This document shows positions 2,261-61,813 of a stretch of 64,000 bases of DNA, one piece after another; position 1 is the first letter of the stretch, and every line of letters starts with the position of its first letter. Made by a program: the position numbers and the translations under genes. The stretch comes from Amphiura filiformis (Eukaryota > Echinodermata > Ophiuroidea > Amphilepidida > Amphiuridae). The notes under the pieces were generated by a model. It saw nothing but the letters and a program-made list of their open reading frames with translations. It was not told where the DNA came from and did no database searches. The DNA is taken from contig NC_092646.1 of assembly GCF_039555335.1 (NCBI RefSeq), positions 34,935,380-34,999,379 of the forward strand, read 5' to 3'.

Positions 2261-5200
2261 CATGAGCAGCAGGGTCATCTATATCATTACAGATCTCACG
2301 GTATGCTCTTGAATTGACAAGTTTGTTAAAGGCCGGATCCCACCAATTCTTCAAAAGAGAGTCTTTGCGCATCATCATTGAGTCGCCTGTTAGTAAGAGA
2401 AAAGGAACTATGTTGTCAAAAGTCCGTTGATTTCAATTAAGTATTTTTAAGGTCCGTTCATACTGCGCCGCAATTGCTTTACGGTACGATACGTTGCCGA
2501 TATATCGATTACTTTTTGCCACAATTCAACGAAACTCGTCTCATTTCCAAGTTAAAATGTATTTAAATTTATACCGCAAGGGATTATTTTGCACGGATAC
2601 AGTGCGACAATGCACCGCATCGCAAAGCAATTGTGGCGTAGTATGAACGGACCTTCAGTTCACAGTAGACAACACTAGGTGAACGAACGTTAACGCGTTA
2701 CGCAGACGTGAGATGTCACATGATGCTGTTTAACGGATGGGCACTCTTTGAATAACACCAAATTGGATCTCATGCGTTCATGTACCGGCTTCATGTACCG
2801 CGTTCACGTGTCGCGTTAACGTATCGCGTTCACGTATCGCGTTAACGTACCGCCTTCGCGTATCACGTTCACGTACCGCGTTAACGTTCAACGTTTTCGT
2901 ACCGCGTTAACGTATAACATTCACGTACCCTACCACGTTAACGTACCGCATTATAAACGTACCTCGTTAATGTATCCCGTTCACGTACCGCACGGAAATC
3001 GACAATATATGCCATGATAATTGACTGAATTTCCGGTTTTTAAAGGTGACGGAAAAGAAATTTTGGTCAATTGGTGGACGGACTTATGAGTCAGTCGGAT
3101 GGGATGTTTGCAGACGATGAGCAATCAGCGTGTTTATAGTGGGAGCAGCTGTGCGGTACATTACGGTATAATTTCTATCCGGTCAGAAATTATCCGTGAA
3201 CTTTCTCACTGAAAACACTAGCCATATTTGTATGTACCGCACATCGATATCCTTCTCAACCGAAGGATATTGGCGCGAGATATTTGCTCTATAAACACAC
3301 GAGGATAAATGTGCTGTATGACCGAAAGTAGCAGCTTCTTCATGATGCGTAGAATACGCACAGGACATTCAGAACGCTTCTCACCCCAAGACAGACGCTT
3401 GTTTGCCGCCAAGATCATACTGTTGAATAGGCTGTTTATAGCTCGCGCCACATTATTTACACATTCCCTGTGTGACCTTGGGGTCATTGTAAATGTACGG
3501 TAATGGTAGTTGGTATATAATTTGTATGATAACTGTATCTCACTATAAACAGCAAGAGTTTCGGTATATATTCAAGGACTATCGTATACGGTATACTCAA
3601 AACTCGGTATTCATTATAAATACGCTGTGCATTGTCGCAATCATAGATAAAATACAATACCGATCTTTTCGAAGACATTTATCTTACGGTGTGAGTGAAA
3701 CGTACATTGACTCAGCAGCATAATATGAAATTTTAATAGAATTGCGATCCAGGTCTTTGTGTCTATTCTTTGACAATCGATGGTGCGCTGCAGAGTTACA
3801 GCGTACGTCTAGTGCAGGACAATATATTATAAAACATGTTGTCATCTATCGCCATGGTATTTAATCCTGCTACATCATTACTCCTACGGCTACGGCAAGT
3901 CATGTCACTTGTTCATATGCATATTGACAATAACCAGCAAACTCTTATCGATTTGCGGTATATATAGTCTGTCCTAACTGTTGCACTTACCTCCCAACAG
4001 ACAAGGTTCAAATTCTCTGACTAATTCAAGACTTCCATCCGTAGCCCTTGGTAGTCCTCCTGAGATAAATATGGCATCAACCTTTAAAAAAAAAGAAGTA
4101 GGATTAATGTAGTGAAACGACTTTGGGATGGCAATATTATTTTTCTCCTCCCTCCCCTCCCCTCCCCTCCCCCTCCCCTTCCCTTCCCGTCCTTTCCCGT
4201 CCCGTCCCGTCCCTTCCCGTCCCTTTCCTTCCTTCTCTTCTCTTCTCTTCTCTTCTCTTCTCTTCTCTTCTCTTCTCTTCTCTCTTCTCTTCTCTTCTCT
4301 TCTCTTCTCTTCTCTTCTCTCTCTTCTCTTCTCTTCTCTTTCTCTTTTCTTTTCTTCTCTCTCTTCTCTTCTCTTCTCGACCGACTCTCCTCTCCTCTCC
4401 TCTCCTCGACCGACTCTCCTCGGCTCCCCTCCTACCTCTCTCCTCTCCTCTCTCTCTCCCCTCCTCTCCTCTCCTCTCCTCTCCTCTCCTCTCTCTCTCT
4501 CTCCTCTCCTCTCCTCCTCCTCTCCTCTCCTCTCCTCCCCTCCATTCCCTCTCCTCTCATATCCTCTCCTCTCCTCTCCTGTCACCTCTCATCTTCTGCT
4601 CTCCTCTACACCCAGCTCCAATCCACTCAACTCCTATTCTCCTTTCCCCTTCTATCTCCTCTCCTGGCCTGTCCTGTGCTGTCCTGTCCTCTCTTATCTT
4701 GTTTTCTCTTCTCATTGGTCTTCTTGTAGTACCGTTTTAAAAATACATTTACCTCACCACCATCAAGCCCTGCTACCAAAGTATTCAAATTATCATCTTG
4801 GTTATACGCAAACACTTGGTTATCTCTGATGTCATAGCCCTGTATAAACCATTAAATAAAAAAAGCATAAATAAGTTACACGACCTCTTACTAGGCACTA
4901 CCAGTATTATAAGAAACATTGGAATCAGTTTTCAGGCTTTCTATGTAGCAACATGCAATTTCGCAAACAAATATGCTAATATAAAGGCTTCTTACACGAA
5001 GGCTTCTTACTAAGAGTAAACTTATCGTTGTATCAAACCACCTACACCCCAGGTTTGATCAATAGTATGCAAATGATTACATAAGGAGTGGGGTGAGATG
5101 CCATGTTCCCACGGGGACCCATAAAAGGTGTGTTATTTTTCAACGGAGTTGAGGTGTGCGGATCGCGCTACCGAACCATTATCCATTTCTGAGAGTAACT

Positions 5201-8200
5201 TCGTCCTTAATGAAATGGGCTAAAGCATGGTTAGTAGGTCAATAACAGTTAGTCGAGCTTGACTTACAGTGACTCTGAAGATACAGTATGCGTCAGCCCA
5301 CCATCCAGCTAGTATACCGATCTTGATTCCATTAAGGTTGTCTGCATTAACGCCGCTTGGATTGCCGCGGCGAGTAAGCAGTACAGGTCGAGTTGCTTTA
5401 ACAGTACTTGTTGAAAACTTAAGGGATCGGACCCTATCCGCTGAGATGGAAAAACCTGACAAAAAGGATACATGGGAGACATTAATATTAAATTCGGGTT
5501 TGTGCTTTGGATTCCAAAGGGGCTGAATATGATATAAAGTTGCGGTAGCAACTGAGACCTTTTTTTTTTTTTTTTTGCGAATGATGTTGAAAATGAACCT
5601 GGTACCTGAGTGGTTGCTGGGGATATTTTTGTTCAGTCTATTGAATTATAAAATGAGTGTTGGGGCAGCGGTTGTTCATTCGCATTGAACCACTTAGGTA
5701 CCAGGTTCAAGCCCCGGCCGTGCGCAAGAAATGTATGTGCACTTAGTTTATCCCGCCCCATGCTCGCTCTAGCATGTTTTCTCCGGTATCTCCGGTTTCC
5801 TCATGCTTTCAAAATCGGTGATTAGCTGTTTGATTATCAAGAATTTCCTTCACTCAATGGAATTTGGGGAGCTGCACAGACAATTGTGTGGATGTTACGG
5901 TGCAAGCGGAAAAGCTTTTTTTAGATCATGGTGTGTGTGTGGGTAGGAACTTGTCCTTTATATGCACCTTCAATAATTCAATGAATCCTCCGAGATCTGA
6001 AAAAGGCGCTAGGTAAATCCAAAATGTATTAATTATTATTTATAAATGCCGATTATAATTGATAATGGTTCTTGATTATGCAATTTGATCATAAAAAGTG
6101 GCCATTGATTTAATTTATATTGAAATCTCAAGGTAAAGGTTAAGCTTACCCATACAACCGTCCACCCATCTGCCGAGTAAAGCTTGTTGTGGAAACCCAT
6201 CAAACCAACAATCTCGCCAATTACTGTGAACAATCTCGCAGTTCTTTCCCGCAATTTGGCACACTACAAAATACAGGAATGAAACGGATGTTAACGTATC
6301 CATCCAACTTAATATGTGAGCGTACACTACGAATGAGCCGTAAAGTCGGCAAATTGTATTCTGAGATACAGTGTAAAATGTGCGTGAAGGTCTTATTCAT
6401 AGGTTTAGTTTTCAGAAAATTAGTGTTGCCGCCCAATTTTGCAGTCTCTGAAGTCTGCTCCAAGTAGAACTGCATTGGCATAGTCGAGACGAGAAAGAAA
6501 TAATGACCTAACAATGTGGTGGAATGTGTCTCTGTCTAAGAACCGGTGTTTGTTTGCTTTGGCTAAATCATGTTCAAGTGGTGGGTTACAATTATATTGT
6601 ATTTTGTCTAGGTATGTATAACTAACAATTAACAATGAGAGGACATTCCTGAACCTCGTTGACTTGGGGACGATTTGAAATGATCGCCAATTATGACTTT
6701 ATTACCAGCAATGTGGAAAAAGAGACACATGTAGAACCGAAAAAGGTACCATTTTGTTGAAGGAGCAGAGTTCAACAAACCATAATCCCTCTTTTCCGGA
6801 TATCATTTGAAGTCAAAATGATATACCATTTTAAAGGTTATCATATATATTTTCTGAACACGAAATAAAACAAAATTGATCGGGCCGACTTTACGGAAGA
6901 TTCGTAAGTGTCTGGTCACATATGTAATAGCGAAAGACCGTGACGCTGTGGTCTGAGTAAAAGAAGACAATAGGACATTCCCATCACGGCATGTTATATC
7001 ACCTACGTAACTCAAATTAACACGTACTCCTTTGTATACAATATGATATCCTGTAAAACATGCAATTTTCTTGATCATAATAAACTGGGTAAATACGTAC
7101 CATTTGCAATATTTGGGCATGCTGTTTTCATTAAAATTCACATTTTGTCACAATATATTCATGTTAAGCTGTTACGAGTATGTTGGAAATATGTGACTTT
7201 GAAAGGTCTGAAAAGCCCGGTTAATAAGCTACAAAACCTGGCAATATTCATGATTCTTACAAATATTATGATTCTTATAAAAAAAGAGAGAAAAGATGAG
7301 ATAAATATTAAAAATTAAGCAAAAGGTATTTGATCTAGATAATCATGCTCGACTGTCATCGGTTTGTTTTACCTTCGTTTATAACATCAATGAAATGGCC
7401 TCGATGTTGCCTGGTTTTCCGGTCTCTGAAAAAAGAATGAAAATAAAATTGCCAGATATAGTGTGTAGCGGATTCAGGTTTTTCGGATTGGTACACTCAC
7501 CAAGATTAGTGGACTCCTATTTTAAAGGCTTACGAAAAGCTGAATATGTTTTTAGGAAACGCAAAAGTTTTGCACCTACACACAACCCGCTACCACTTAT
7601 TCGAAATTACATTTGTTTCATGTTTTCTTTCTTTCTCTTGTTCATTTTTTCTGAGGTATACCTGTCCCCTTATCCGTACATGCATACATTATGCATATAT
7701 CGACTAGACAGGTATGCACACGCCTCAACAGCGTGAACTGCTCCGATGCGGGCATTCGTGTGGGGTAGTGGGTAAGCTGCTTATAGGACGACCCAAAGAC
7801 GTGACACGCGCGGAAATGCCATTTTTAGAGGAACATCATGGTGTGTGTATGTGTATGTGGGTGGGCAGTTATGTGCAGGATCGGATTTACCATTGGGCCG
7901 GATGGGCTCGGGCCCAGTGCCCCCAAACTTGCCCTGTGCATCTTCCTTTTTTAGCACAATGCAGGAAGGGAGTATGGTGCTGATAGCTGTTTGTGGGTGT
8001 AGATCCCGGGGTGTAGATGTATGCTAAATAGGCTTTTAAGCTTGCCTACATGTTCCTGGTTTAGGTACAGGTGATTATTACGACATAGTACTTACATGTA
8101 GATGACACGGTTGTCGTTATCTCCGTTTTGGAAGGTCCAAATTGTTTCATCATAATGCAAATAATCCCCGGATTGCCCCTGACGCCATGGTGTAACACTA

Positions 8201-9225
8201 CCACCACTGTCACCATAAGAATGATCTGGAACACGATTACGGGAATACAAGTAAATGTATGGGGAGTCTCTATGATCGACATTTAGGATAAGGAGTGATT
8301 TCAAACATACACATCCCACCACTAACCACCACACTCTACCCCACCACAATCCCCATATATAAACGACCGCATCCACGCAGACATACCCACCCACCAAGTA
8401 AATGTATGGGGAAATTTAGAGTCACTCAGATTTCAAGGTTTTATATCAGAAAGGTTGTGAATTTCCAATTAGTACTTAATCTACTAAAATCGTGTTAAAT
8501 TAATCCTTACTTTTATGATTACCTATTTACTAAGGTCCAGTGATGAAGTTTACGATCAATACATTAACCAAAATCAGGGGGGAGGATACGTCCTTCTTTC
8601 ATATCTTTCATATCGCAGCAAACACAAACATTGTCGTTTCTCAAAAATTCTAATTTTTGCAGAAATCTGTCGTGCTAGTTGGATCAGTTCTTTTCTGAAA
8701 AAATATACTTTCATGTTCATCATTATTTTCAAAGGTACAATTCATACACAACGATATCTAAAATTTCGTTGAGTGAACAAGCCACCTTAATAACATTTAA
8801 ATGTCGGGTTTTATAAGATCATGAATACGTTTTTTGTAAAATATTTTAGGCGAAAATTTTGGTACAATATTTTGTCAACACTTAAATAACATTCAGCTGA
8901 AATGTTTTGCATCACCTTTTCAAAAAATGTTTTATAATTATTTAAACGTTTTTACCGTTTGTATAACCCGACATTACGACACGACACGTTTTTGTAAAAC
9001 GTTGTGTGTTAGCTGGGTTTAAATACCTGCATTACCTCCTCTCGACCCGCCAGAATCGGAACCGTCCACATTGATATTAATAGGTGCATCACCGCCTCTG
9101 TTATAATTCAATACTGCCATTACCATTCCAGCCGCAGCTACAATCCCTACAATAAGAACCAGGATGCACAGGAGGACAAACACACTGCTTCCTTCATCTT
9201 CTTTTGCGTATTTTCCTTGTCCCAT
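2261..9225 (-). CDS. Gene 1: type II membrane protein with SBP_bac_3-like ectodomain (3' end outside window)
   Basis: Eight exons in transcription order: 9225-9027, 8225-8096, 7425-7373, 6263-6150, 5455-5268, 4839-4753, 4081-3991, 2386-2261. All have AG acceptors and GT donors and join in frame (988 nt); exon 9 (47 nt in paralogues) was not found in 1-2260 and should lie to the left. The N-terminus (MGQGKYAKED) precedes a hydrophobic anchor, then a Gly/Asp linker. The ectodomain shows C-x6-C, a GFSI-x-x-DR motif, a TRRGNP crossover, the NADNLNGIKIG motif, LVAGLDGGE/VDAIFISG across the exon 6/7 border and MRKDSLLKNWWDPAF. This order matches bacterial polar amino-acid binding proteins; ligand unknown. 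All four exon 4 cysteines are present. Exon 1 is 9 nt shorter than in the paralogues, and its donor (GTATTT) abuts a repeat. The start is the ATG shared by four paralogues. Confidence 0.8.
2449..2655. mobile_element. 207-bp MITE in intron 7 of gene 1
   Basis: Terminal inverted repeats of about 28 bp beginning AAGGTCCGTTCATACTGC and ending with its complement (GTATGAACGGACCTT). No coding capacity. Confidence 0.7.
2690..2998. repeat. CpG-rich 12-bp minisatellite
   Basis: About 20 imperfect copies of a 12-bp unit near CGTTAACGTACC / CGTTCACGTATCG. CpG density is far above the surrounding AT-rich, CpG-poor DNA. It lies in intron 7 of gene 1, next to the MITE. Confidence 0.7.
2999..3984. other. 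Rest of intron 7, gene 1: no gene seen
   Basis: Intronic sequence up to the exon 7 donor. Short open frames on both strands here have no recognisable motif and no splice context. Some short inverted segments (3130-3720) suggest an old element. Confidence 0.4.
4140..4730. repeat. Polypyrimidine/polypurine microsatellite filling intron 6 of gene 1
   Basis: About 590 bp of CTCTT, CCTCT and CCCGT arrays on the plus strand, so the transcript carries pure GA-rich RNA. It occupies most of intron 6 (4082-4752) and ends about 20 bp from the exon 6 donor. The long Leu/Ser/Pro-rich open frames here are artefacts of the repeat. Confidence 0.9.
5585..6050 (+). mobile_element. tRNA-derived SINE-like element, intron 4 of gene 1
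   Basis: A B-box-like GGTTCAAGCCC at about 5706-5716, a body with TCTCCGGTATCTCCGG, and a 3' part reading GAAAAAGGCGCTAGGTAAATCC before an AT-rich tail. A partly inverted copy of the tRNA-like head lies at 5593-5613. This layout is typical of deuterostome tRNA SINEs; the family is not named. Confidence 0.5.
6440..6640 (-). mobile_element. LINE reverse transcriptase fragment, intron 3 of gene 1
   Basis: The minus-strand frame 6635-6420 contains HHIVRSLFLSRLDYANAVL, the C-terminal thumb region typical of non-LTR reverse transcriptases. No complete ORF remains. Confidence 0.6.
6640..6915. repeat. Dispersed repeat, copy A
   Basis: Inverted copy of 28500-28790: the GACATTCCTGAACCTCGTTG end and the CCGACTTTACGG end are shared, suggesting the tail of the neighbouring LINE or an independent interspersed repeat. 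Confidence 0.55.
8791..9016. mobile_element. Fragment of the AACGTTTT/AATGTCGGGTT repeat beside exon 1 of gene 1
   Basis: Contains AAATGTCGGGTT, ATTTTGTCAACACTTAAATAACATT and an AGCTGGG end, all diagnostic of the element complete at 28817-29402. Its edge lies 10 bp inside intron 1 from the exon 1 donor at 9026. Confidence 0.65.
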
Positions 9226-12308: not shown

Positions 12309-15300
12309 TTAAAGATTGACACATGTGTCAACAGCGGTATCTCCCAACTTGAATCCTGTGAAAAAGAGATATAAGCAGACGGGACACGTTAGATCAGCTG
12401 AGACTCTTTTAAATACGGTTTTGCTACAGTTTGATAAGACTTGAAATAATGAGAATAATTTTATAACGTTAATTTAAACTAACATTGTGTTTCACATTTT
12501 CATGTCAGCAATAATATTAATAGGCCTAGTTCCTTTGTTTCAAATTATGGAACTTTAAATGGACAATCAAATTTGCTTAAGGTTACTACAAGAAACGCAT
12601 AAAAACGTATAAAAGAGGTATTAACTTGTTCTCCAAAACCAAGTTGTCTCAGCAATTAAATATCCCAGTGAAATCTAATTGTATATCTTCTTTCTTGTTC
12701 ATTTCTCTCTTTCTTGCTTATACTTTGATTAATTCGCTGACTGCAGTGATTGATTTTTTCCACTTTATATAATTTCGAAATGTACATGAACATTTTTCAC
12801 AAAGTCGATTTTAAAATATAGTTGTTTTAATTATTCAAAAGTTATTGTTGTAGTTATTTTTACATATTATTGCGTAATCGGGGCAATAGCAGCACTGATT
12901 TATTTCACCAAAGATATCAAGGATGATTTAAAATCAACACTTTTTCCAGATACGATGGTGTAGCGTCATGGGAGACATGGGAAGTCCCCAATCGACTTTA
13001 AAATTGAACAAATCCCATATGAAAATCAGGCCCATCAGGTCCGTTTCCTTATGCCAATCAACGGGTTATGAAATGTTTAATGAAATAGTCATGTGAAATG
13101 AGCATACAGTGTATGAAAGATCCCTGTTATATAAAATATGCTCACCATGAGCAGAAGGGTCATCTATATCATTACAGATTTCACGGTAGGCTCTTGATTT
13201 GATTAGCTTCTCAAAAGCTGGATCCCACCAGTTCTTCATCAGAGAATCTTTGCGCATCATTATTGCATCTCCTGTAAAAAAGAGAAGGTAGGTATATAAA
13301 TTAAGCTTTCTGTTTTAAGTCAAGAGTGATGTTTGAATTGACTAGATGTAAAACTATAAATATGCAGAACCAGTTTTCAATATTTGAAGAGCTTGTTTCC
13401 AAACCACGTCCACAACCACATGTTTCTCATTTACTTGTGTTGTACCCTCAGTAAGCCATTATTTACCACAACAATGCTGCTTAACAATATGCAGACTATT
13501 GTTCTCATTTGTGAGCCAAAGGCCTCAAACAGTATTGTTACTGTGCATCCATCCACTGTTTGCTTTGTAATAGTGCATCCAACTGAAATTACTATGCCTA
13601 TAACATCTCAACACATAGCAATATCGCACAGGTCAACAAGGAAACATGTGTTTGTGAACAAAGCTCTTCATTTATAGAGTACAAACTGTTTCAGATACAC
13701 ACTGGAGATATATATTTTTGGATACGTTTCTTTGCAGTAACCAACCCTTATATAATCAAGGACAAAATTAAAAAGACTAGTTTGCGTCTGACGTCAGTAT
13801 ACCGAACCCAAGTTGCAACACATACCTCCTAGCAAACAGGGTTCATATTCCCTGACTAATTCAAGACTTCCATCCTTAGCCCTTCCCAGTTCACCTGATA
13901 TGAATATGGCATCGACCTACGCAAACGAAACATGCATGAAATATATAGTTAAATATGATTATACTGTCATCTTAGTTTTTATCGCGAGAAAAGTTTACAA
14001 AGAATAAGCTGTCATTCTGTTTTATAATTGAACTAGATCAAAATCTTTTTCGTTTTCTCCTCGCCGCTATCTGCTTTGCCTCCCTCTTTCCCCTCGTTCT
14101 CTTTCAGCTGGCCTTATGGATCTAACATGTTCAATACAAACATCCATCAAAAAATAATTATCCCTTTAAATAATGGCCATCATTCTTTAACCGTATTTGT
14201 ATGCCAAAGTTAGTATACACCGTCGAAACAGAATTTATTGCTGCGCATAATGACACCTCATTTGCTCTATTAAATGATCCCAATAATGATAATGTCGCAG
14301 CGTACAGTTTAATGAAAGTAACCCAAGATTTGAAAGGTTTAGCAAAATCCTATTGCCTTGTATTCAGTATCCATTGAAGGAAAATCTTATCAGCTTTCAT
14401 TGGATTATTTTGTTTCAAGCATTTGGAGGGGATCAAAATATGTGATAATCACGAACAATTGTCATTATTTACATCAGTGATCATTATTCACGTATAATGT
14501 CAAGTTGAAATATGAAGATTTCAATATTGTTTTTCGACTACGAGTACATGTGCTAAATATAGCCTACAGTTGCAAGTTGTCCTTTCAGTGGTATACATTG
14601 AAAAACAGTCACCGATTTAAAGTTTAAACATTTATTTGTATTGTGCTATAAACCGATCAAAATATCGCCATTTATCAGGTCCAAATGCAGTACCGATTAG
14701 ATATTAGAAGCCCGTTTTGTTTGTTTGTTTGTTGTTGTTGGGGTGTGTGTGTGTGTGTGTGGGGGGGGGGGTGTCTGTGTGGGGGCATTTTGTCGAATCT
14801 TGCATGAAAAAAACCTGTTTCGATATATTAATTATTATCTTGATTGTGGAACGTTATTTTAGTTATCTAGCTATAGTCTGTATACCTTCACCGAGTCAGT
14901 AATTTAGATATTATTATTTATTGTATCTCTAAATGTAATGATGAGAAGCATATACAAGTACACATTTTTTGAAAGGACATGATGCCAGGAATCCAACTAG
15001 CAGAACAGATTCCTGCAAAAATGAACATTTTTTGAGAAAATCTCAAAATTTAATTTTACTTTACTGACTCAAGGAAGGTATACGGACTATACCTACATTA
15101 TTTCTCAATATTCTTCCTGTAACTATCCCACTTCAATTTCACTCCAAATTGATGTTACTATTCCAAAAACCGAGGTTCTTTATAACTTAATTGCGGACGT
15201 GTTAATGTCATTCTATTACACACAATATCATCGCTATAAATTTCGTAAGATATTGCGTGGCATTATCAATAAAGCGCTATCTATTTTGATATATAAACCA

Positions 15301-45049: not shown

Positions 45050-45084
<35 letters not shown>

Positions 45085-48000: not shown

Positions 48001-51000
48001 ATCATTCCTAAAACGTTGATTGTATTTGTATGCCAAATTTGGAATATGCAGTCGAAGGAGAATTTGTTTATGCGTATTATGACAACTTATTTACTCCAAT
48101 GATCCCAATATTGATGTCGCAGCGTACGTTTTAATTAAAGTAACCCGAATTGTTCACGTTGCATTCTCTCCTGGCATTAACACAAAAGTAACTATTTTCT
48201 ACCTCGCCACTTTCGAGCCCTGCTACCAGTGAATTCAAATTATCGTCTGTGAGATATTCAATCACTTGGTCATCTCTAAGTTCGTAACCCTGCATGAATG
48301 ATAAAAAAGCAATACACAGTTAATGCACGTAATGTTTGTGAACCTTAATCGACTGTATGTACACGGACCAGAAAACAAATATTATCTCATTTTTATAAAA
48401 AAAAGTCCAAGAGTCAAATTGTTTGTTATTAAAATATATCAAAGTGATCGAACGGCTAGGCGAAAGCTCCTGTCCATTTGCACCCAGCTACGCGTCGCGA
48501 CGGTGGAACAAAGTGGAGGGCAGTGTCGGATATAGAAAATGTACATAAATGGCCGCGACGTAGTGTTGTCTGAGGGAGGATGTGCCTCCTGCGAAGTGAG
48601 AAACTTATGCAAAATGACGGCCCAACTGTAGTCATTCGTTGGACCATTTTGGTACTATTATTGTATTGTGTATACTTGAAGTTTGAAAAGCCGAAAACTG
48701 ATGAAACAGTTAAAGCCATTCGTGGATATCATTGTTTTCACAAGGATTATTGTATAAATTATATAATAGTGTTGGGTTCCAAAATCAGAAGCGAATAGCG
48801 GAGTGTCTGTGAGGAACCCGGTCGAAAAAGTGTGTGTGTGGTGTGTGAGAGTGTGTCCCGCCGAGTCCACCGCCATTATTTGCATCCCAAAGGTAAGCTT
48901 GGTCTTTCCCTGTAATTCATTACCCATATGTCTCCGATAAAATTCGTGTGTTTGACTGCTAACGCCCCGAATAACGTACCGTGACACTGAAGATACAAAA
49001 GGCATTGGCCCACCATGTACTTAGAATACCGATCTTGATTCCGCTCAGGTTGTCTGGATTAACACGACCTGGGTTACCACGACGAGTCAGCATCACAGGT
49101 TTGTTAGCCTTAATTAAAGGAAGTGAAAACTTGGTGGAACGGACTCTGTCCATAGTGATGGAAAAACCTGATAAGAGAGGATGTATGTGACAATTCGCCG
49201 TAGAAGTGACGTAGTTAATCGGATGAACTACCATAGCAATAGAGGAATACAATTTTGACTATATCGCCCTGCACTACACCGTTCACGTGTTACCGATGCA
49301 TTGAGCCATATATGTCAAAAAAGCTGATCACTCGCACCTGTAAGATTAGTATCTTTGAAAAGAGCGGTGTGTATTCAAACTATGTTTGCTGACATACACA
49401 GGTGATTAGTGCAATCTGCTTGTAGTGCAGGGCGATCATTTCAAAATTGTATTCCTCTCTTGCTATGGTAGGTAATCCGAGTATAACGTCACTTCTACGG
49501 CGAATAGAGAGTCTGCGAAATGCGGTTCAAATGCACAACATTTAACGTCTAGAGGATTATAGAGGATTATCTATTCAAAACCACTATGCCATGGAAGCTT
49601 TTAGAAGTCAAAAAGTAAATTATGCAAAAAAAACGCGTTAATTTAAGAAGAATAGTTTTAATATTTCACAAGTTATATTCGTTCTATTTATACCAATGAT
49701 AGATTGTAGATACTAAAACATACTTTTAGTTTATATACTATGCTTATTGAGCCAAAGAATGTATTATATATAATGCTTCATTGATGTTTAGTCTTGTGCC
49801 ACCTAAATCAAGAACCAACCAACGTATTTTTTGACTTACCCATACAACCGTCAAACCATCTATCGAGTAGTCCTCGTTGTGGAAATCCATCAAACCAGCA
49901 ATCTCCTGGATTGGCGTGAACAGTCTCGCAATTCTTTCCCGCAATTTTACAAACTTTAAGGAAAGAAGATTAGATAATTGATAGCGTTCCATTCAGCGGA
50001 GTGATTGTCTTGCAACATCGTAATATTTGAATGCTTATAATTAATAGGGTTTCCCAGATTCCTTTTCCTTTGACCCCAGACGCATGTGAAAAATCCAGAG
50101 CATACGCATAATACAAAAGTTGTTACTTACCAATACCAACCATTGGAGCTCCAGGCAAAATTCCGGGGGGCAAATTTGGAAAATATGTATGCGGCGTCTT
50201 TAAGCGTTGAGTGTACGCCAGCGATATGAGACTGCGCCCAATGAAATGCGCACTGACGGCCGGGACTGACGGCATTGCCACATCATGGTGAAAAATATAT
50301 ACATTTGATCTTACTGATAACTTTCGATTTCATATAAGATTGTCCAAAACATTGAAGAAGGATAACCTTGTTTATACAAAATCTTCGTGTTTAAATATCG
50401 GTCCAATTACCTTCATCTATAACATCGAGGAAATAACCTCTTGACTGCCTGGTTTTCCGGGCTCTGCAAAATTCAATGCGTAAATTCATTACACGGTGGC
50501 GCCGTGTTTAGCGATAGGTTTGGACATTTGATTATAATTTATTATAATTTAATTCAATGTGTTTGTGGGTATAAGGACAACACGGGGGGTAATTATTATA
50601 ATTATAGGCGCTACCAACCCTTCTGTCTCCTCCTTCTTTTACACTAATGGATAACACGCCGACACAACGAGGACCTCGAGCATGACAAGGACTTAGACAC
50701 GGGTCCTCGAAACGAAATTCCTTTTGAAAAATCCTAAACGGGGTCCTAATCCATGTCATATGTAAACCCCCTCTAGGCCTATACCTAAACGTTAAAGGAA
50801 CGTTCAATATTTTCACCGGGCGTGTGTTGGGTTTTTTTAATTCAAAAATTTAAGAAACCCCTTTCTAGATGTGTGTGTTTAAAACACAAATATGCAATTT
50901 ATGTCAATTTGGATACTTGGATAAGTTGTTAGTGTGGACCGAAAAAAATTGTCATGGACAATCAAATTTGGCTCTTTTCTTAAAAAATGTTCATTTTTGC

Positions 51001-54000
51001 AGCTGGATTCCTTGTATCATTTCCTTTATGAAAATGTATACTTTTATGTACTTACCATCATTACCAGTCAACATTAATGGGTAAATTTTCTGGGGAAAAT
51101 GTTCTGGATACGTGACCAATGCGTATCAAGGTGATTGTAACCTTGGTGGTGACCTCGCTATTCAAGTCTTAGTCATTTTGAATTGGAATAGTATTCCTGC
51201 CCGCAATTTCGATAGAAGTTATTAAATATTATGCAGTCTTAATTTCTGCACAATATCATCAAAACGTAATTTCAAAAGTTTTTACCTATTGAAAAATATT
51301 TACCTACAGCAAGTAACTTATTTAAGTTAAAATTATTACAGGGAAAATATGACACAACATCCAATGGGGGAGTAACACAAAATATATAAATAAAGTTAAA
51401 AACCCGACGTTTCTCAAGGGATAAAATAAGAGATCTGCTCTCAGTATAGTGGAGACCTGCTCTGATAAAAAAAAAGAAGATAAAAAGCTGCATTGACTGC
51501 AACATTGATTATAACAGCAGAAAATAAAAGAAATCTGAATAACAGTGGAGGCTGGGGTGGGTTGGGATAGGTGTGAAAAACCAAACGTATGGAGAACCAA
51601 AAGGGAAAAAAGAATGGAGAAAGGCATAAAAAATATGGTCGGCCAAGCAGGTCACAATGAGGGGAAATCGACAAGGGAAGGGAAAATTGAAAATAACCAA
51701 AATCTAATGAAAATGGGGACCACTGACCCCACAACCCGGCACACGGAACAGCCATGCGGTACCAACGTCTATGTGCGTTGGCATGACGTTGGTACCGCAT
51801 GGCTGTCCCATCTATTTCTAGTGTGAACTGTTGTATCCTTTTGGATCCATCCTTTGGTTCCCTGCTGGTCAGTTGGAACAGATTTTCCCTGTTTTTATAT
51901 TCTTTTAAGTTATTTTGCATGAAAGTAGGAATTCTTTCTATTCAAATACATTCGTAGACCACCCGCTGCCCTGGGTCACATTCCATAATGCTAATAATTA
52001 TGTCTGCGCCCATGGTTGTCACGTGTCCAGAAAATTTTCCAGTGAAAATGTACCCATTAATTTGCATTACTTTTCAAGATACAATATAAAAAAAATGTTT
52101 AAAATTTCCCAATTTGAGTGACCTTGCCTGCCCCCCCTTAAGGGGGAAATCATATTTTTTTTGGGGCGGGGTCTTGTGTAGGAAAAGTTTGAACGGACAC
52201 GATTTGTTGTTAAAACTCCCACTCTCCCGGCGTAAATATTGATCAGTCCATATTAACAAAAAAAGTAGTAGACTTACTACAACACAATATAGATTAGTCA
52301 TATGAGAGATCATAAAACTATAAATCAAAATCCTGGTCATTTCAGGAGGATGAAATGTTGCATTTGGATGAATTTAAGCAGGTATGGCAATAATTATGTT
52401 GATATAGCTAGTTAAGTATAGCTTGTAAATTTAAATTTTAAAAACATGGTAGATTGATATTCATTGTTCTTACAAATAGGAGATGCGATTGTCCGTATTT
52501 CCCAGGAATATAGTCCAAACTGAGTCATCATAATGCAAATCACTCGCGGAAATTCTCTCGGTGTGACCTCCTGGTGAACTACCTATTTTGAATAAAAGAA
52601 GACATAAAGTCATAAACATCATAAACATCGTGTGCAGACAATCGAAGGCAATAAAACCAAATTAGTTTGATCTTTTGATTGACTATCGATGCTTGGTCGA
52701 TCCTTATTATTCATAAAACTAATGAATTGACTTTTGTTAACTGTGATTACATGTGAAGCTGTGTATGTAATGATATTGAACAATACAAGTTTACCAGTAA
52801 TTCTGATTAATTCAATTATATAGTTATAATTGAGTTAATCAATAACAAGCATCGAAGTAGTATCGTCGGTCGATCCAAGGATTGAACAAATTTGGTTCTG
52901 GTCCCTAAAGTGATATGTTTTATGGATTTCAAAAAATATATTTCAAAACTCACAACTTAATGTTAAAATTTAATAAATTTTGGTATAGGCTTTTACTAGC
53001 ATTTAATAATTAATTTTTACTACAATTTAATAATCTAAAATGTACTTACAACATCTAAATTTAATCGTAACTCTTTTGTTTGTTATCAAGAACTTTATTT
53101 GCATCAATCACAATATTTCTGAATATTCCTGTAAAAACATGCAACTGCCCACAGTTTGAAATGTATTTTGCCCTAAATGATTAATGTTACCTTGACATAA
53201 TGGTACCCTTAAGGGTCGCCGAATTGACCAATTCAGCATCAATTCTGCGCCCCCTCCAAGTGATGAAAGTCAAAATGTTCGATTAGTTTCCCCGCATTTA
53301 AGCACAAAATCAATTTAAGACCGATATTCAACTTCGTTATAACCTAACTATTAATTAGTGTTAGGCCACATTTGTGCAAAGGTTCGCGCAATAGTGTCAA
53401 GAAGGGGGGGGGGTGCATTATGTATCCTTAGCCTTGAGCTACGCCCACTGTATGGATTTCATCTTAAAATAATGACCATTAGATACCTGACCATAATAAA
53501 AAGGTATGGGGCTACGGACGTTTTCATTCGTAACACCAAATATTTTGATTCTCGCAGTCAAATAGTTCCTACATTGTTTTAACTGGAAAAATGGCTCATT
53601 TCGGGCGGAATTTCTCATATTCAGAACTCTCCCTGTTAAACGCCACCAAAATCAGGTAAAACTACATGATTTAGATACCAAATCATTAAATAATCAACAT
53701 AGGTTGACCTGAGACTTTTCTTGTTTAAATGCATAGAACCGCAAACACCTTAAAATGGCAGTGGGCCCAACGAAGCTGAAAGTTACAATTAGGTAGGGTG
53801 AATTTTTACTAATAACCAATACCGTGATTATAGATTTCCTTACCCATGTTACCTCCATAGTTTCCACCAGATCCGCCAGAATCGGAACCGTCCACGTTGA
53901 TATTAATAGGTGATTCACCGCCTCTGTTATAATTCAATACTGCGATTACCATTCCAGCCGCAGCTACAATCCCGACAATAAGTACCAGGATGCACAGGAG

Positions 54001-54051
54001 GACAAATACATTACCTCCTGCATCTTCTTTTGCGTATTTTCCTTGTCCCAT
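43955..54051 (-). CDS. Gene 4: type II membrane protein with SBP_bac_3-like ectodomain (complete, 340 aa)
   Basis: Nine exons: 54051-53844, 52582-52474, 50463-50411, 49953-49840, 49167-48980, 48289-48203, 47753-47663, 47078-46953, 44001-43955 (TAA). They total 1023 nt in one open frame. Exon 1 encodes the near-invariant start and anchor; exon 2 a short Ser/Gly linker then DLHYDDSVWTIFLGNTDNR; exon 3 RKTRQSRGYFLDVIDE; exon 4 VCKIAGKNC and the DCWFDGF to DGCMG segment with four cysteines; exon 5 GFSITMDR, TRRGNPGR and NPDNLSGIKIG; exons 6 and 7 join as LVAGLESGE/VDAIFISGE; exon 8 MRKDSLMKKWWDPAFEKL and YREICNDID; exon 9 GFKLGDTAVDTCVNL. It looks the most intact member and is the best reference for the family. 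An extracellular ligand-binding role is inferred from the fold; no catalytic residues are seen. Confidence 0.83.
44334..44498. mobile_element. 165-bp MITE of the GACAGAGATAAAAA family, intron 8 of gene 4
   Basis: Inverted ends AAAGACAGAGATAAAAACACTAG and TTAGTCTTTTTTTATCTCTATC, central CCAATCACGGCGCGGC. Confidence 0.65.
45045..45086. repeat. (CAA)n microsatellite
   Basis: About 13 CAA units in intron 8 of gene 4. Confidence 0.9.
45969..46641. mobile_element. Foldback element with about 80-bp TIRs, intron 8 of gene 4
   Basis: Ends GGAAGGAAAACAAGCAAG and CTTGCTTGTTTTCTTTCC are inverted copies for about 80 bp, each running to a G/C run next to CAATATGCAG. AATCAACA flanks it at the left and recurs at about 46733, and gene 2 keeps an uninterrupted counterpart at about 12940. 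Confidence 0.75.
49192..49505. mobile_element. 314-bp palindromic MITE, intron 4 of gene 4
   Basis: TTCGCCGTAGAAGTGACGT at the left, ACGTCACTTCTACGGCGAA at the right. Gene 3 has the empty site (GCATGTGACAAAAAAGAG at 37188). A diverged family member is at about 57995-58290. Confidence 0.8.
50464..52473. other. Intron 2 of gene 4
   Basis: No exon found. A minus-strand frame of 159 codons (51920-51441) overlaps a palindrome around 51755-51805 (GGTACCAACGTC...GACGTTGGTACC). I take it as repeat-derived and assign no function. Confidence 0.4.
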
Positions 54052-54561: not shown

Positions 54562-54689
54562 AAGCTGAATTTATACTGCATCGCTGAGCGACGAGCGATT
54601 GGCATTTGACCAATAAGGTAGCGCGCTTTTCCCAACGCAACAAAAAGCGCAAATCACAATTGCTCAGCGATGTAGTATGAATTCAGCTT
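54562..54689. mobile_element. 128-bp MITE, spacer between genes 4 and 5
   Basis: Near-identical twin of 43317-43444 in the equivalent spacer, upstream of gene 4. Confidence 0.75.
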
Positions 54690-56028: not shown

Positions 56029-59000
56029 CTAGTGATGGAAGCAAATTTCCGCAGACGATTTTCCTGGTATACTTCCTGTATAAATTGAAATATACAATGT
56101 TTATTACTATTAGCCAAAACAAATTAGCAAAAAAATGTGAAGTAGAAATATTTGGGTACCTTAGAATTTAATAAAAATGTGCCGCTGAGAATATGAAAGT
56201 GGACCCATAGATATACCAAATTTTCAAGAAATTTGGACCCATTGATAAACCAAAATTCAAAATTTTCGGCCAAATTTAACCCATATTGTTTTAGTTTTTT
56301 ACAAATTTTTGTGGACAATTTTGTCTACATTGAGGCAAACTGGGTTTTTTTCGAGAAAATTGAAAAACTTTTGAAAAAAGGACCCATTCATATACCAAAA
56401 TTGGCTTAGAAAAAGGGTCATTGATATACCAAAAGGCCGATAATGCTATCCATATTTGCGGCACGTATGGTCATTTATATTAAGTACCACCCTGGAATCT
56501 CATCTACAAGTAGTTGCAAGTCGAATAAGAAAAAAACGTATGAATGTGATGAAACTCATAAATGAAGTTGCTTATTCAAAAAAGACACTTTTTCGATCAC
56601 GGTAACAATTATTTGAATTAATGATAATAAAAGTAAAACGATTATTACTTCACTTACCATGTACACGTGGGTCATCGATGTCATCGCAGATTTCACGGTA
56701 GACTCGAGAGCTGAGCAGCTTCTCGAAAGCTGGATCCCACCAAGACTTCAAAAGTGAATCTTTGCGCATCATGAGCGATTCTCCTACGAATAATAGTATT
56801 GTGAAAATATGTTAATTTTTCCACAAACTTACGAATACAGGAATATTATAAACCGGTTCTATACGTCCCCAGCAAACACAAAACGTTTTCGATATCATTC
56901 GCAAAAGGTTATAAAAGGTTGTCAGAAAACGTTTAAATGTCGGGTTATATAAAGGGTATATTAAGAGTATAAAACGTTTTCATAACCTTAAAAACATTTT
57001 TGATAATCTACTGCTCAGCAAACAAAAATGTTTTACAGAAAACATTTAAATGTCGGGTTATATAAAGGGTATAAAGATGTTTTAATAACATTCCAAAAAC
57101 ATTCTTGAAAACTTGATACAAAACATTCTAAACAGAATGTTATTTTGTGGTTGAAAAAATATTTTGCGAAAAATGTTTGCCCAAAATATTTTCAATAACG
57201 TTTTAAAAACGTTTTCATGACCTTTATATAACCCGACATTTAAATGTTATTAAAAGGTTTTGAAAAAAACATTTTAAGAACATTTCTGTGTTTGCTTGGT
57301 TCAAACATTTTAACATAATGTTATTTAAGTATTGACACAATATTTGGCAAAAATGTTTGCAAAAATACTTTACAATAACATTTTTGAAAACATTTAAAAA
57401 TATTGTTGTAGTGTGTTTTCATACAAAACGTTTTAAAACGTTATCATGACCTTTATATAACCCGACATTTTAATGTTATTAAAACGTTTTACCTAAACCA
57501 AAAGCCAAAATATAACTTATTTAAAACGTTTTTAAACGTTTTTGTGTTTGCTGGGTCGTTACAATACAAAAGAACAATGCTTCTGTATACGGGAATTACA
57601 AAAATTATGACGTGGTTTATCGAAAGGGGACACTTTTGGGCATGATTGTAAATGAAGAAATTGCAAGAAATCTGCCCGGGGGTGATTTTTCCACAATTTG
57701 GATTTGTTGCGAATTTATGATGTTAATAATGTTTAAAAAATTGTCTGATAGTTTCAGACCAGAATATTACTGGCATCTCGTATTTTTTCGGAATTTTTTA
57801 AAAGTCATTACTACTCTCAACATTGTCAATAATATTTTTAAAGGCCGATATCTCATTTTCCAATTTTATAATACCATAACTTATGAACTCAATATGTTCG
57901 CTTAGGAATGCAAAATACTTATATTTAAGATATGCAAAAAACGTAAAATTGATAACCTGCTCAAAAGTGTTTCTTTTTGATATACCACGTCACAATTCCA
58001 TACGCTGGCGAAGTGATGTAATAATCGAATTAACTACCATAGCAATATGTGAAAACAATATATATCGCACTGCACTACAAGCAGGTTGCACTCATCACCT
58101 GCGTATGTCTGCAATCACAGATTGAATACAATACCGGTCTTTTCAAAGATACCAATCTTACAAGTGCGAGTGATCAGCATGATATGATTCAACGCAGAGG
58201 TACCGAGTGAACGTACCAGTGTAGCGCGGTACATTCAAAACTTGTTTTCACCTATTGCTATGGTAGTTAATCACTTTGCCAACGTATAGGGAAGAAAATA
58301 AAACAGAATTTATGCTCCATCACTTAGCGACGAGCGACTGGTATTTGACCAATGCGCGAGCGCTTTTCTCAACACAACAAAAATCGCTTTAAATCATTGC
58401 CAAAAATAAAAACACTTGTCATTTAGCGAAAGAGTTTAACTTCAGATTAAAATTAAATAAAATTCTGTTTCATTTTGAAATCGGAAGTGTATAATATATG
58501 ACGTACCTCCAAGCAAGCAAGAATCAAATTTCTTGATAACCTCTAGTGATCTAGTTGCAACATTTGACAGGTCATCGGATATGAAGACGGCATCTATCTG
58601 AAATAGTGGATTTATGTGATTAAAATATTATGTTCAAGTAGTTCAAGTAAGGTAAGCACAAATAGTTTTTATTGTTTATTTGCTAACATATGGAAGTACT
58701 GTCGGACATGACGAGTTGATCTGGAAGTCTGGAACACACACCGACATCGCCTGGTTAATAATTACATTGTACAGTAGAGACACTAATATCAATACCCGGG
58801 ATCGATACATGTGAATATGCTATGCACGATTTGATATTCAGGCAATAAATCTTTGGATACCGGGGTAGAAAATGATGAATATCTCCCGTAATTGTGTTAT
58901 TCTAAAGAAGCCGCTTTTGATGCTCGCACATATATGAATATATGTGTTGAAAGGATATGATAGTCGTTAGCTTGCGTATTGAGAAAGAACCGTGCGTATT

Positions 59001-61563
59001 GAGCTCAAAACAGTGTAGGCCACTGGTGGAGGCAGTCTAAAAGCAGATGATCTCATGACGTATACCATGCTCACTGACATCTACAGAGGTCAGTCACCAG
59101 GCTATTGTCAATAGCCTTAGTCGGATGTCCCTCGGCCCATTATGCGTCTCAAAACTATTAAACAGGTCGGAACAAAATGGCCATGCATGGCAGTGGATTC
59201 AACCATGGCGATTTCTGCCATGAAGATATCGGGGCGATGACACTGTGGAACATCTCATTGTACAATGTTGTATTGTGTAACCTGATGAAATAACGAACTG
59301 TTCTTTCAAACATTAAACAGAGTAAAGCCTCCAGCATACTTTCCTGCCGCTTGCCGCTGCGGCAAGCGGCAGGGCGTTTCAACCAATGACAAGCCTTGAT
59401 TGTGTCCGTTTGTCTGCAATACGCGTGCGCCACGCCGCTCAGCGGCAAGCGGCAGGGTAGTATGAAACCAGCATAAAGCGCCAAGTGTCTGAAGCAAAAG
59501 TTTTGTGTCTTTGCTCTGTACCAGAAACGGGAAGCAACTGTGGCATGCAAACTTCAAAGAAAATCAATATTTAAAGATTTACATGTAGAGTTGATATTGC
59601 ACAAATAACCTGCCAAACCTTAGGAGGTCACTGTTTATTAATTCAATTCTACATACATTTTCTTTTAAAGCATGATGCAGTCATGTCTACAGTAGAATTC
59701 ATCTCGACCTTTGCAGGACTTAACCCCATTAAAAGCTATTAAACCAAGATAACACTCATTGAAACAGCTCAACTGATTAAATCGGATCTTCTCTGGTTGT
59801 GCACAAGTGACTGTTTTCATGTGCGATATCGCAATAAAGCTGGTATTCATAGCTTCAGTTGGGTAACCGATTATAAAGGAAACGAAAGGAAACAATGTTA
59901 TGTGTGGCTTTGTTCACGAAATCAGACAATGTCGTGCTTTTTGTAAACCAGCATTCTTGAAAATGAGCAACATAATGATTTTTGACTTAACACGGTTTAG
60001 AAATAATTTCTTCATATTTTTGGTGTTATCTGTCGTTTACATGTCCTTCCTAAAACACAAAAGTACGACCCTCTCCAAACACCTAAATTAGCTAAAAATT
60101 TAGGACATGTTACAAAACTTTATTTTCTAGAACCTATTTAGAATAATTTAAATGTAGCTTTTACCGGTTTTTTTGTGGCATCCTTCAGAAGTGAGCGGTC
60201 CGATACCAATATTTTCGGTCAAATCTCCATTCAAATAACACGGGGAGTTGGCTAGCTATGCCTTGCCCTCACTCATATTTTACAAAAGTACGACCATTTC
60301 TGAACATCTAACCTAGCTGTAATTTTAGGTCATGTTAGAGAAATATATTTGCTAGAAGTTTTGGAGAATAAATAAAATATTGGCTGGTTATTTTTCACAC
60401 AGTGATGTTAACTAGGCAAGTGTCCATTCTCCCAACATACATCATTTGTAGGGTCACGCGTCAATGGTGAGAGCACTGTGTATTGTGTATAGGAAAACGG
60501 ACAGTAACTGCAGTATGGAAAGAAGTTTCAATGCTAAAGTTACTGTACTTATACTTTACTAGATTTCGCGGTTCTCGGGTCGGGCGGTTGTCGTTATTTC
60601 TAATCCCCCCCCCCGTATACCCATATACCTGCCCTGACCTTTTAAACTACTATGAAATGCGTCTCTTAATGGCCCAAATGGATACAACTTAATCAACTCT
60701 GTTTTGTATCTGTGATGCTTTCTTCAGTCGGTAGTTCGGTAGGCCTACCCATAATCTGGAAACCCATCATTCGCCTCTTCCAAGCCCTGTCCTGCTACCA
60801 CTTTGGAGGACATTGGTATCTTGACGTGGATATAGGCCGTTACTAAAGTAATGAAATCAATCGGGAGAAACGATACTCCGCGATAGCGCACCGCGAGCAC
60901 GCGATAGTGCACCGCGAGAACGCGAACCGCGCGGACGCGAACGCGATAGCGCGCGGACGGACGGACGGACGGACACTCTGTAAATAGTATTAAGATTTAC
61001 GTTTGTACCACGTTACAAAGGTCAATAATAAATTAAATGCTTTGCCCAGAAATCATATTGAAGAAAATGTTTTTTTGGCTTTTTTTTTTCAAAACTAAGA
61101 TAATAAAGATTGAAGTTGATGCAACATGTCTAATTCTTCATACTTACTTCACCTCTCTCGATTGCATTTGTAATTGTGGTCAAATCCTCATCCTCGAGAT
61201 AGAAAGAAATCTGGTCTTCCTGTAGCTGAATATCCTGAAGAAAACAAATAAAGAAATTAGGAATAAGTTCAAAGAATGACTGATTTCTGTGATTAATTTG
61301 TTGCCCGATTCCTTTGAGGAGTCATTTCTGGTATATGCTATGTAGTCCTTTGCAAGTGATCATCGGAATTACCCAAAATAGAATAATTAGCTTTTAAATC
61401 TACAGTCATTTACAAATCCAAAAAGAGTAGGATATATCAACACATGCAATTGAGTGTTCCTCTAGTTTTGGGTACTGATGAAAGTTAATCAAACAAAGAA
61501 ATGAAGACACAGTGAAGAACTACTAGTATATAAATAGATAAATAAAAAAATACAATCAATCAG

Positions 61564-61621
<58 letters not shown>

Positions 61622-61813
61622 TTACCGCAGTACTTGATAAACAGAACTCATCAGCCCACCAGTTTTGAAGAAATCCAACCTTGACACCTCGTAAGTCATC
61701 CGGATTAATACGAGACGGGTTACCACGTCGAGTAAGCATAACGGGCACAGGAGCAGGGGAAATCGACCTAGTGAACATAACTGAGCGCGATCTGGCTGCC
61801 GAATGTGAAAAGG
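56029..61813 (-). CDS. Gene 5: divergent SBP_bac_3-like paralogue (5' exons not found)
   Basis: Five exons: 61813-61626 (188 nt), 61234-61148 (87), 58597-58507 (91), 56783-56658 (126) and 56075-56029 (47, ending TAG). Their lengths and phases equal exons 5-9 of genes 2 and 4, although the protein differs much more. Exon 5 keeps TRRGNPSR and NPDDLRGVKVG but reads AFSHSAARSRS where others read GFSITMDRVRS, so the Arg that should meet the ligand carboxylate is shifted or replaced and specificity probably differs. Exons 6/7 read ITNAIERGE/IDAVFISDD; exon 8 MRKDSLLKSWWDPAF and YREICDDID. The last exon shares with the others only the 47-nt length, a Gly at its fourth and a Cys at its eleventh full codon. 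Exons 1-4 were not recognised between 61814 and 64000 and probably lie to the right. Confidence 0.75.
56876..57560. mobile_element. AATGTCGGGTT-family element, inverse of 28817-29402
   Basis: Starts CAAACACAAAACGTTTTCG, ends CGTTTTTGTGTTTGCTGGG. It contains the same blocks as 28817-29402 in reverse order, about 100 bp longer. Intron 7 of gene 5. Confidence 0.75.
57995..58290. mobile_element. Palindromic MITE, intron 7 of gene 5
   Basis: TACGCTGGCGAAGTGATGTA at the left and TTTGCCAACGTATAG at the right. ACTACCATAGCAATA is present in both orientations, linking it to 49192-49505. Confidence 0.6.
58690..59260. repeat. Dispersed repeat, copy 3 of 3 (opposite strand)
   Basis: Carries CACACCGACATCGCCTGG, TAGTCGGATGTCC and CATGAAGATATCGGG, the complements of the blocks in 16850-17490. 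Intron 6 of gene 5. Confidence 0.6.
59338..59460. mobile_element. Short GC-rich hairpin MITE
   Basis: CTGCCGCTTGCCGCTGCGG begins it and CAGCGGCAAGCGGCAGGG ends it, with a perfect inner hairpin at 59345-59376. Confidence 0.6.
60880..60975. repeat. GC-rich tandem array ending in (GGAC)n
   Basis: Irregular GCGATAGCGCACCGCGAG-type units followed by five GGAC repeats; strongly CpG-rich in AT-rich surroundings. Confidence 0.7.
61553..61620. repeat. (TCAA)n microsatellite at the exon 5 donor of gene 5
   Basis: About 16 TCAA units. The transcript reads GTAAGATTGATTGATTG, so the array starts at the sixth intron base. Confidence 0.9.

Follow-up and report, generated by a model that had tools for sequence, protein, structure and literature searches.

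Five tandem paralogues (A to E) lie on the minus strand of a 64,000-nucleotide stretch of the Amphiura filiformis genome (the window), where they were found via exon homology and span positions 61813-2261. In the two complete copies (B and D), a short N terminus is followed by one hydrophobic anchor, a Gly-rich linker, and one uninterrupted SBP_bac_3-type domain. We favor, with somewhat better than even confidence, the view that these genes are a tandem eukaryotic family of membrane-tethered, cell-surface Venus-flytrap binders of the SBP_bac_3 type, with an amino-acid-derived ligand and an origin in an old bacterial transfer.

In the exon models, GT-AG sites were picked by eye, and the phases agree across the copies. 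These junctions, together with exon homology, bear out the same-strand array of five paralogues put forward in the original prediction. The genes and the parts discussed below are as follows.

56658..61813, minus strand: gene A, partial (exons 5 to 8), at 61626-61813, 61148-61234, 58507-58597, and 56658-56783.
43955..54051, minus strand: gene B, complete, 340 aa, from an ATG-to-TAA open frame, exon homology, and GT-AG junctions; exons 1 to 9 at 53844-54051, 52474-52582, 50411-50463, 49840-49953, 48980-49167, 48203-48289, 47663-47753, 46953-47078, and 43955-44001.
33742..42655, minus strand: gene C, without exon 6, frame intact, 311 aa; exons at 42448-42655, 41672-41780, 40661-40713, 38451-38564, 36986-37173, 36604-36694, 35770-35895, and 33742-33788.
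12309..32449, minus strand: gene D, complete, nine GT-AG exons, 344 aa; exons 1 to 9 at 32242-32449, 29670-29790, 26761-26813, 20491-20604, 16112-16299, 15490-15576, 13826-13916, 13146-13271, and 12309-12355.
2261..9225, minus strand: gene E, eight exons, 329 aa read; exons 1 to 8 at 9027-9225, 8096-8225, 7373-7425, 6150-6263, 5268-5455, 4753-4839, 3991-4081, and 2261-2386.
53844..54051, minus strand: exon 1 of B, with the N terminus, the hydrophobic anchor (residues about 15-39), and the Gly-rich linker; equivalents at 42448-42655 (C), 32242-32449 (D), and 9027-9225 (E), minus strand.
49840..49953, minus strand: exon 4 of B, with the C-x6-C of lobe 1 (residues 125 and 132).
48980..49167, minus strand: exon 5 of B, running from GFSITMDR through NLSGIKIG to WWA.
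43955-44001 (B), 33742-33788 (C), and 12309-12355 (D), minus strand: exon 9, which had been overlooked earlier.
15830..16293, minus strand: perfect 232-bp tandem duplication that repeats most of gene D exon 5.

Exons 1 to 4 of gene A were not found within the window and presumably lie past its edge; the gene is 53% identical to gene B. Gene C has an inverted repeat where exon 6 would be, and its second lobe is short with this exon missing. It is probably defective or misassembled; that one of the five copies is damaged counts against our best explanation. Should exon 8 of gene E be unspliced at its 3' end, the reading frame would meet a TAG stop after it. The second copy of gene D exon 5 lacks an acceptor AG and should therefore be skipped in splicing. 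A candidate "exon" located 3' of exon 5 (VHGGPMPFVSS...) was dropped since it is the same DNA read in another frame.

Exon 9 of B, C, and D encodes a 15-residue tail, GFKLGDTAVDTCVNL, with one cysteine, and then a stop. The earlier statement that nothing follows the domain was thus wrong in detail, and there is still no further domain. With exon 9, the number of ectodomain cysteines becomes even (8 in B and C and 6 in D). For A and E, no convincing exon 9 candidate was present in the window.

The motifs reported for the ectodomain were largely recovered. The C-x6-C was found in all four copies that have exon 4, and MRKDS...F-x-KL...Y-R was found in 5/5 copies with small changes. B, C, and D carry GFSITxxR unaltered, against GFSISADR in E and FSHSAAR in A. 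The same three copies match DNLSGIKIG at every position; E has DNLNGIKIG and A has DDLRGVKVG. L-x-x-GEVDA is missing in C because exon 6 is missing. Exon 4 of B encodes two extra cysteines (residues 142 and 160), neither of which is present in D. As predicted, the lobes are contiguous and without a pore, since exons 5 to 8 join them directly.

When searched against Pfam, four of the five copies matched SBP_bac_3 (PF00497; curated cut-off, 26.4 bits). E (30.9 bits; E-value, 2.6e-7) and D (27.6 bits; 2.7e-6) scored above the cut-off, and C (25.6 bits) and B (25.3 bits; 1.4e-5) fell narrowly below it; the partial gene A alone had no Pfam match. The matches cover most of the profile with one contiguous two-lobed domain, residues 103-315 of B corresponding to positions 12-125 of 132 and residues 109-319 of D and E to positions 14-125. 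A profile search of the PDB agreed with a place in the SBP_bac_3 superfamily: the best match was ArtJ (1.1e-4), followed by 8hqr, AncQR, and LAO, and 6/7 matches at E<=10 were bacterial-kind solute binders, one of them a reconstructed ancestor. The identity to three solved binders was 23 to 33% over the aligned parts. Judged from the sequence, the domain would have the PBP type II fold and form disulfides.

The predicted N-terminal anchor was recovered in every copy in which exon 1 was found (4/4). It reaches a 19-residue Kyte-Doolittle mean of 3.1, and no segment after residue 45 is above 1.6. The charges flanking the anchor are ambiguous as to topology; a type II single-pass orientation, with the C terminus outside, is nevertheless what we infer. 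In the model that we propose, a short cytoplasmic N terminus, one signal-anchor helix, and a Gly-rich linker would precede a complete two-lobed SBP_bac_3-type domain outside the cell. Several disulfides would stabilize this domain, and the chain contains no channel, kinase, or transporter. The cleft would close on a small carboxylate-bearing ligand. Most likely, an amino-acid-derived metabolite would be captured or sensed at the cell surface, and the metabolite or a signal would be handed to a separate partner. The genes would most likely go back to a bacterial solute binder, perhaps one like LAO/HisJ, whose gene was transferred long ago and gained the introns and the anchor exon later. This transfer is the least secure step of the model.

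The residues of the ligand pocket were compared with those of LAO, whose numbering is used here. Equivalents of Ser72 and of the carboxylate-binding Arg77 are present in 5/5 copies (in B within GFSITMDR, the Arg being residue 169), and those of C38 and C45 are present in the 4/4 copies showing exon 4. Arg77 is also present in 39/42 control domains; because it is near-universal in such domains, its conservation is no guide to the ligand. Asp161, which in LAO helps to hold a free alpha-amine, is replaced by Ser in 5/5 copies, and Trp-Trp stands in place of Ser120/Thr121, again in 5/5. Ordinary alpha-amino acids may therefore not be the main ligands. OccJ has Ser at position 72 and Asn at position 161, yet it is reported to bind arginine, more weakly (PMC5740067, PMC4192606). 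This precedent and the conserved Ser72 suggest that the five copies may bind amino acids too.

Many marine invertebrates produce opines of the alanopine/octopine type. The copies could conceivably recognize opines, or N-substituted amino acids like them, at the cell surface, with an acquired bacterial binder retuned via Asp161 to Ser, which removes part of the hold on the alpha-amine, and Gln122 to Ala, though we rate this specific reading as very unlikely. If it were true, the animal would sense anaerobic metabolites from itself or from its neighbours. In LAO, the single change of Gln122 to Ala is reported to allow octopine binding; the copies resemble OccJ in having Ser at 72 and Ala at 122 and resemble NocT in having Ser at 161 (PMC5740067, PMC4192606). 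Of the five residues of the opine (ketoacid) signature, 72, 122, and 161 thus match OccJ or NocT, but 92 (Lys, Arg, or Val in the copies) and 121 (Trp) do not; the copies also differ from both proteins at the arginine-side positions 11 and 117. The Ser72/Ala122/Ser161 combination was found in 0/42 control domains, and neither OccJ nor NocT was among the PDB matches of the animal profile.

A bacterial-type solute binder is favored over a glutamate-receptor derivative from sequence comparisons, in which the bacterial sampling consisted of Pseudomonadota, and the C-x6-C in common hints at kinship with the LAO/HisJ branch. TIGR01096 (LAO type) was the best NCBIfam match (3/5 copies at E<=1; best, 9.4e-6), with scores far from its cut-off of 256.35 bits (B, 13.9 bits), so that the copies are not classed as members. 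Within the LAO/HisJ residue set (C38-C45, Ser72, Arg77, and Asp161), Asp161 is Ser in all five. Among 398 Pseudomonadota genomes searched with the animal profile, 10 were matched at E<=0.01, and C-x6-C was present in 10/10 matched proteins. After both cysteines were masked, C-x6-C was still found in 4/5 SBP matches versus 8/42 control domains (binomial p 0.006) or 8/28 control loci (p 0.026). In hhalign comparisons, two control sets without C-x6-C gave 94% and 55%, the LAO set, which includes one profile-found protein, gave 80%, and unselected C-x6-C controls gave only 38%. These values speak against a specific LAO link, as do the animal-profile scores of the unselected C-x6-C controls (-1.0 to 12.1 bits, half of them within the iGluR range). 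The narrow claim of a descent from LAO was lowered, because the masked-cysteine AU test allows kinship with ionotropic glutamate receptors (iGluRs) and a set without C-x6-C beats the LAO set in hhalign.

The main alternative for the origin, which appears unlikely to us, is an animal iGluR that lost its channel, so that the ligand-binding halves fused and left a pore-less domain. A clade of the copies with GluA2, GluK2, and GluN1, three controls whose sequences were entered by hand, is compatible with the AU test (p 0.433); the best masked-cysteine tree, on the other hand, puts the copies with the C-x6-C proteins (90/95.5, not starred), and C-x6-C is found in 0/3 of these iGluRs. An SBP_bac_3 match alone does not discriminate, since GluA2 gives one as well (72.3 bits), but PF10613, for which GluA2 gives 157.7 bits, was unmatched at E<=10 in every copy, and no iGluR chain was among the PDB matches at E<=10. 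The EPC cysteine before the last strands and the near-C-terminal cysteine resemble the C-terminal disulfide of iGluRs. Against the animal profile, the three iGluRs scored -1.0 to 1.9 bits, and -0.6 to 3.3 bits after masking. This is inside the range of the unselected bacterial SBP controls, which puts more weight on the iGluR alternative and less on our best explanation. ArgT and HisJ, neither of them chosen by the profile, scored 18.2 and 14.6 bits, and 15.8 and 6.1 bits after masking, and hhalign gave 1% for the iGluR set versus 38 to 94% for the four bacterial sets.

Other alternatives concern what the proteins do. That nothing here is functional, with chance frames or decayed repeats resembling an SBP, is scarcely credible: an exon is missing in one copy and duplicated in another, but two full nine-exon frames have GT-AG at the listed junctions, the family E-values go down to 2.6e-7, and dN/dS over exons 3 to 9 was 0.15 to 0.30 in 9/10 pairs, the tenth being saturated. 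Purifying selection was significant in the four pairs tested (Fisher p 1.4e-14 to 3.7e-5). A chance origin is ruled out by the reading frames, selection, and family matches. We also think it improbable that the domain no longer binds a ligand and, its pocket decayed, has a structural role or acts in recognition, be it as a decoy, in adhesion, or in immunity. The Trp-Trp and Ser replacements in all five copies and the part of lobe 2 missing in gene C would fit such a loss; the pocket changes, however, are identical in all five, the distant A included, under overall purifying selection, which suggests a new specificity that was kept rather than decay. Finally, the protein could be a secreted binder whose hydrophobic segment is cleaved off as a signal peptide, which we doubt to a similar degree. 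The segment starts after just 14 residues and contains AAAG, but at about 25 residues it is above the usual signal-peptide length and no clear cleavage motif was seen by eye; the flanking charges do not decide.

If the tethered-binder reading is true, several solute binders of bacterial type are maintained in an animal as membrane-tethered proteins whose chain includes neither transporter nor channel; a bacterial sensor domain would then be at work on the surface of animal cells in one more instance. Among the literature matches listed, considered by titles and abstract starts, there was neither this layout nor such an animal family, in line with the original suggestion that no named animal family looks like this. 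An iGluR survey, in the part considered, excluded from its final trees sequences with fewer than 4 residues of the pore motif SYTANLAAF (PMC6307864), so pore-less proteins of this kind could be overlooked. No relatives were found by alignment in non-animal genome-contig or viral-contig collections (few peptide patterns), by one protein in viral contigs, in plasmids at E 0.1, or in one enterobacterial genome; since the collections searched were not of animals, this absence says little. Rfam and tRNA scans gave nothing.

The copies share with bacterial SBP family 3 (PF00497) the whole-domain motif order, the lobe 1 C-x6-C, the Ser72/Arg77 equivalents, and contiguous lobes. Unlike these proteins, they have eight introns, an N-terminal anchor instead of a cleaved signal, extra cysteines, and the pocket changes at Asp161 and Ser120/Thr121, and no transporter gene was recognized beside them: no permease or ATPase was present among 10 further ORFs of the window tested, the sole Pfam match being a reverse transcriptase, whose appearance, like the introns, fits an animal genome. 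The iGluR ligand-binding domain (PF10613 with PF00060) is of the same superfamily, has the T-x-x-R Arg, and belongs to a eukaryotic surface protein; it differs in the pore between its lobes, its PF10613 match, and, in the three iGluRs compared, the lack of C-x6-C. SBP_bac_3 domains also occur in eukaryotic gut fungi, where they are explained by transfer from prokaryotes, separately in two species; the part of that report considered mentions no anchor or tandem intron-rich array such as we describe here (PMC11291939). Venus kinase receptors of invertebrates, from the part of the report considered, likewise have an extracellular Venus-flytrap module in a single-pass membrane protein, but their flytrap is of the class C receptor kind and is coupled to an intracellular tyrosine kinase, whereas the copies have only a predicted 14-residue cytoplasmic end (PMC2680970).

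Exon homology revealed five tandem paralogues on the minus strand, ordered A, B, C, D and E from high to low coordinate. Their junctions were GT-AG (splice sites picked by eye) and a single phase pattern was common to the copies, which bears out the original prediction of five same-strand paralogues. Gene C kept its frame without exon 6. The array probably runs on past the window edge beyond gene A, and perhaps beyond gene E as well.

Genes and repeats of the array
Minus strand: gene A, partial, exons 5 to 8
54051 to 43955, minus strand: gene B, nine exons, unbroken frame, 340 aa
32449 to 12309, minus strand: gene D, nine exons, unbroken frame, 344 aa
Minus strand: gene E, eight exons, 329 aa
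36803-36942: inverted repeat with arms of 68 nt (85% complementary) separated by 4 nt
18643-19758, minus strand: ORF for a reverse transcriptase (RVT_1, E 5.8e-21), inside intron 4 of gene D
15830-16293: perfect (100%) 232-bp tandem duplication spanning most of exon 5 of gene D
4150-4660 (intron 6 of gene E): long simple-sequence repeat, rich in pyrimidines on the plus strand
21976-23324, 26427-29355 and 57191-57490: further repeat families

The reverse transcriptase ORF, non-LTR by its look, may account for part of the greater length of gene D, and the duplication in the same gene is either very recent or an assembly artefact. The inverted repeat sits in the shortened exon 5-7 stretch where gene C is without exon 6. 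The further families include a three-copy repeat with a spacing of ~480-600 bp and dispersed units of 60 nt, several of them containing AACCCGACATTT.

The claim that nothing follows the domain did not hold in detail, though no second domain comes after it. A 47-base exon 9, which the original prediction had missed, lies 0.8 to 3 kb beyond exon 8 in B, C and D and codes for GFKLGDTAVDTCVNL plus a stop; the donor at the end of exon 8 is CATG/GTGAGT in B and C. With exon 9 counted, the predicted ectodomain has 8 cysteines in B, 8 in C and 6 in D. Two exon 4 cysteines are both missing in D (GDCW to QDTW and DGCM to DGSF), and this joint loss suggests a disulfide between the two.

Over exons 3-9, dN/dS was 0.15-0.30 in nine of the ten pairs of copies, dS being saturated in the tenth; Fisher's exact test on four pairs gave p values from 1.4e-14 to 3.7e-5. 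Exon 2, of variable length, was left out, and exon 1, treated separately, gave 0.14 to 0.37 (six pairs). When the anchor exon of gene E (9027-9225, first 55 codons) was compared with those of B, C and D, dS was 0.14-0.24 versus 0.66-0.73 in exons 3-9, a synonymous deficit with Fisher p values of 9e-5 to 0.009. This exon looks like a product of gene conversion.

The proposed assignment to SBP_bac_3 (PF00497), a bacterial-type solute-binding domain, stood in part. Genes E (30.9 bits) and D (27.6) scored above the Pfam cut-off of 26.4, C (25.6) and B (25.3) fell under it, and a Pfam search with partial gene A gave no match. The sole further Pfam match was a weak one to RNF220 in D (E 0.18). A PDB profile search (E<=10) returned seven sequences: ArtJ (1.1e-4) led six bacterial-type solute binders, which included a reconstructed ancestor, and the seventh was a weak match to an unrelated protein. 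Four binders (best E 0.0048) came up when a single sequence was searched, along with two unrelated matches. As controls, the ionotropic glutamate receptor (iGluR) GluA2 scored 157.7 bits with PF10613, the iGluR ligand-domain model, and 72.3 bits with SBP_bac_3, and the bacterial binder ArgT scored 19.5 and 140.9 bits, respectively.

A five-copy profile matched 10 of 398 Pseudomonadota genomes (E<=0.01), and all 10 matched proteins had C-x6-C, a lobe-1 cysteine pair, at the positions equivalent to C38/C45 in LAO. Because the profile rewards those cysteines, both were masked and the phylum was searched anew. Nine of the 398 genomes were then matched (E<=0.05); five of these matches were SBP proteins, four with the pair, and one of them was already in the unmasked set. 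The pair was found in 8/42 control SBP domains, or 8/28 control loci, these being the best Pfam matches rather than a random draw, with an alignment seeded with C-x6-C proteins. Thirty loci were fetched from 20 genomes, and 28 of them supplied the 42 domains, several of which lie in one multidomain protein. The chance of at least four of five with the pair was 0.006 per domain and 0.026 per locus.

In a 51-row tree (rows <190 aa left out, rows partly selected by the animal profile), D and E grouped with 20 C-x6-C proteins in a set of 23 rows (99/98). This grouping stayed, at 90/95.5 and not starred, in a 53-row tree that had masked cysteines and included three iGluRs, a set on which an AU test did not reject a clade of animal copies and iGluRs (p 0.433). 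In hhalign comparisons, the masked profile gave 1% with iGluRs, 38% with unselected C-x6-C controls (n=3), 80% with an LAO set (n=3, one found by the profile), and 94% and 55% with two pair-less sets (n=3 each); the unmasked profile gave 66.5% with ArgT alone. When 54 sequences were scored by profile, the iGluRs ranked 30, 40 and 42 (masked, 23, 34 and 40), amid unselected controls, with ArgT at 18.2 bits and HisJ at 14.6 bits. Taken together, these results, with Pseudomonadota as the phylum sampled, favor a bacterial-type SBP over an iGluR and only hint at kinship with the LAO branch; transfer from a donor is a putative step.

The equivalents of Arg77 and Ser72 (LAO numbering) were kept in all five copies, and in all five Asp161 was replaced by Ser, Gln122 by Ala and Ser120/Thr121 by Trp-Trp; the alignment was uncertain at positions 11, 14 and 17, ahead of the Cys pair, and at 52. 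The LAO, OccJ and NocT papers describe the ligand carboxylate as bound by Arg77 and the alpha-amine as held by Ser72 and Asp161; NocT (Ser161, Gly72) is described as not binding arginine and OccJ (Asn161, Ser72) as still binding it, more weakly (PMC5740067, PMC4192606). From these residues, our best guess is that the copies would bind a ligand by its carboxylate and grip the alpha-amine less firmly. This guess is a weak one because Arg77 is nearly universal (39/42 control domains) and, of the 37 controls in which position 161 is occupied, 19 have neither Asp nor Glu there.

Literature searches aimed at such an animal family showed none among the papers listed, and relatives may sit in databases under no name. 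The arrangement and the host were without a description in the literature searched; the domain itself is known, and transfer of SBP_bac_3 to two gut fungi has already been described (PMC11291939).
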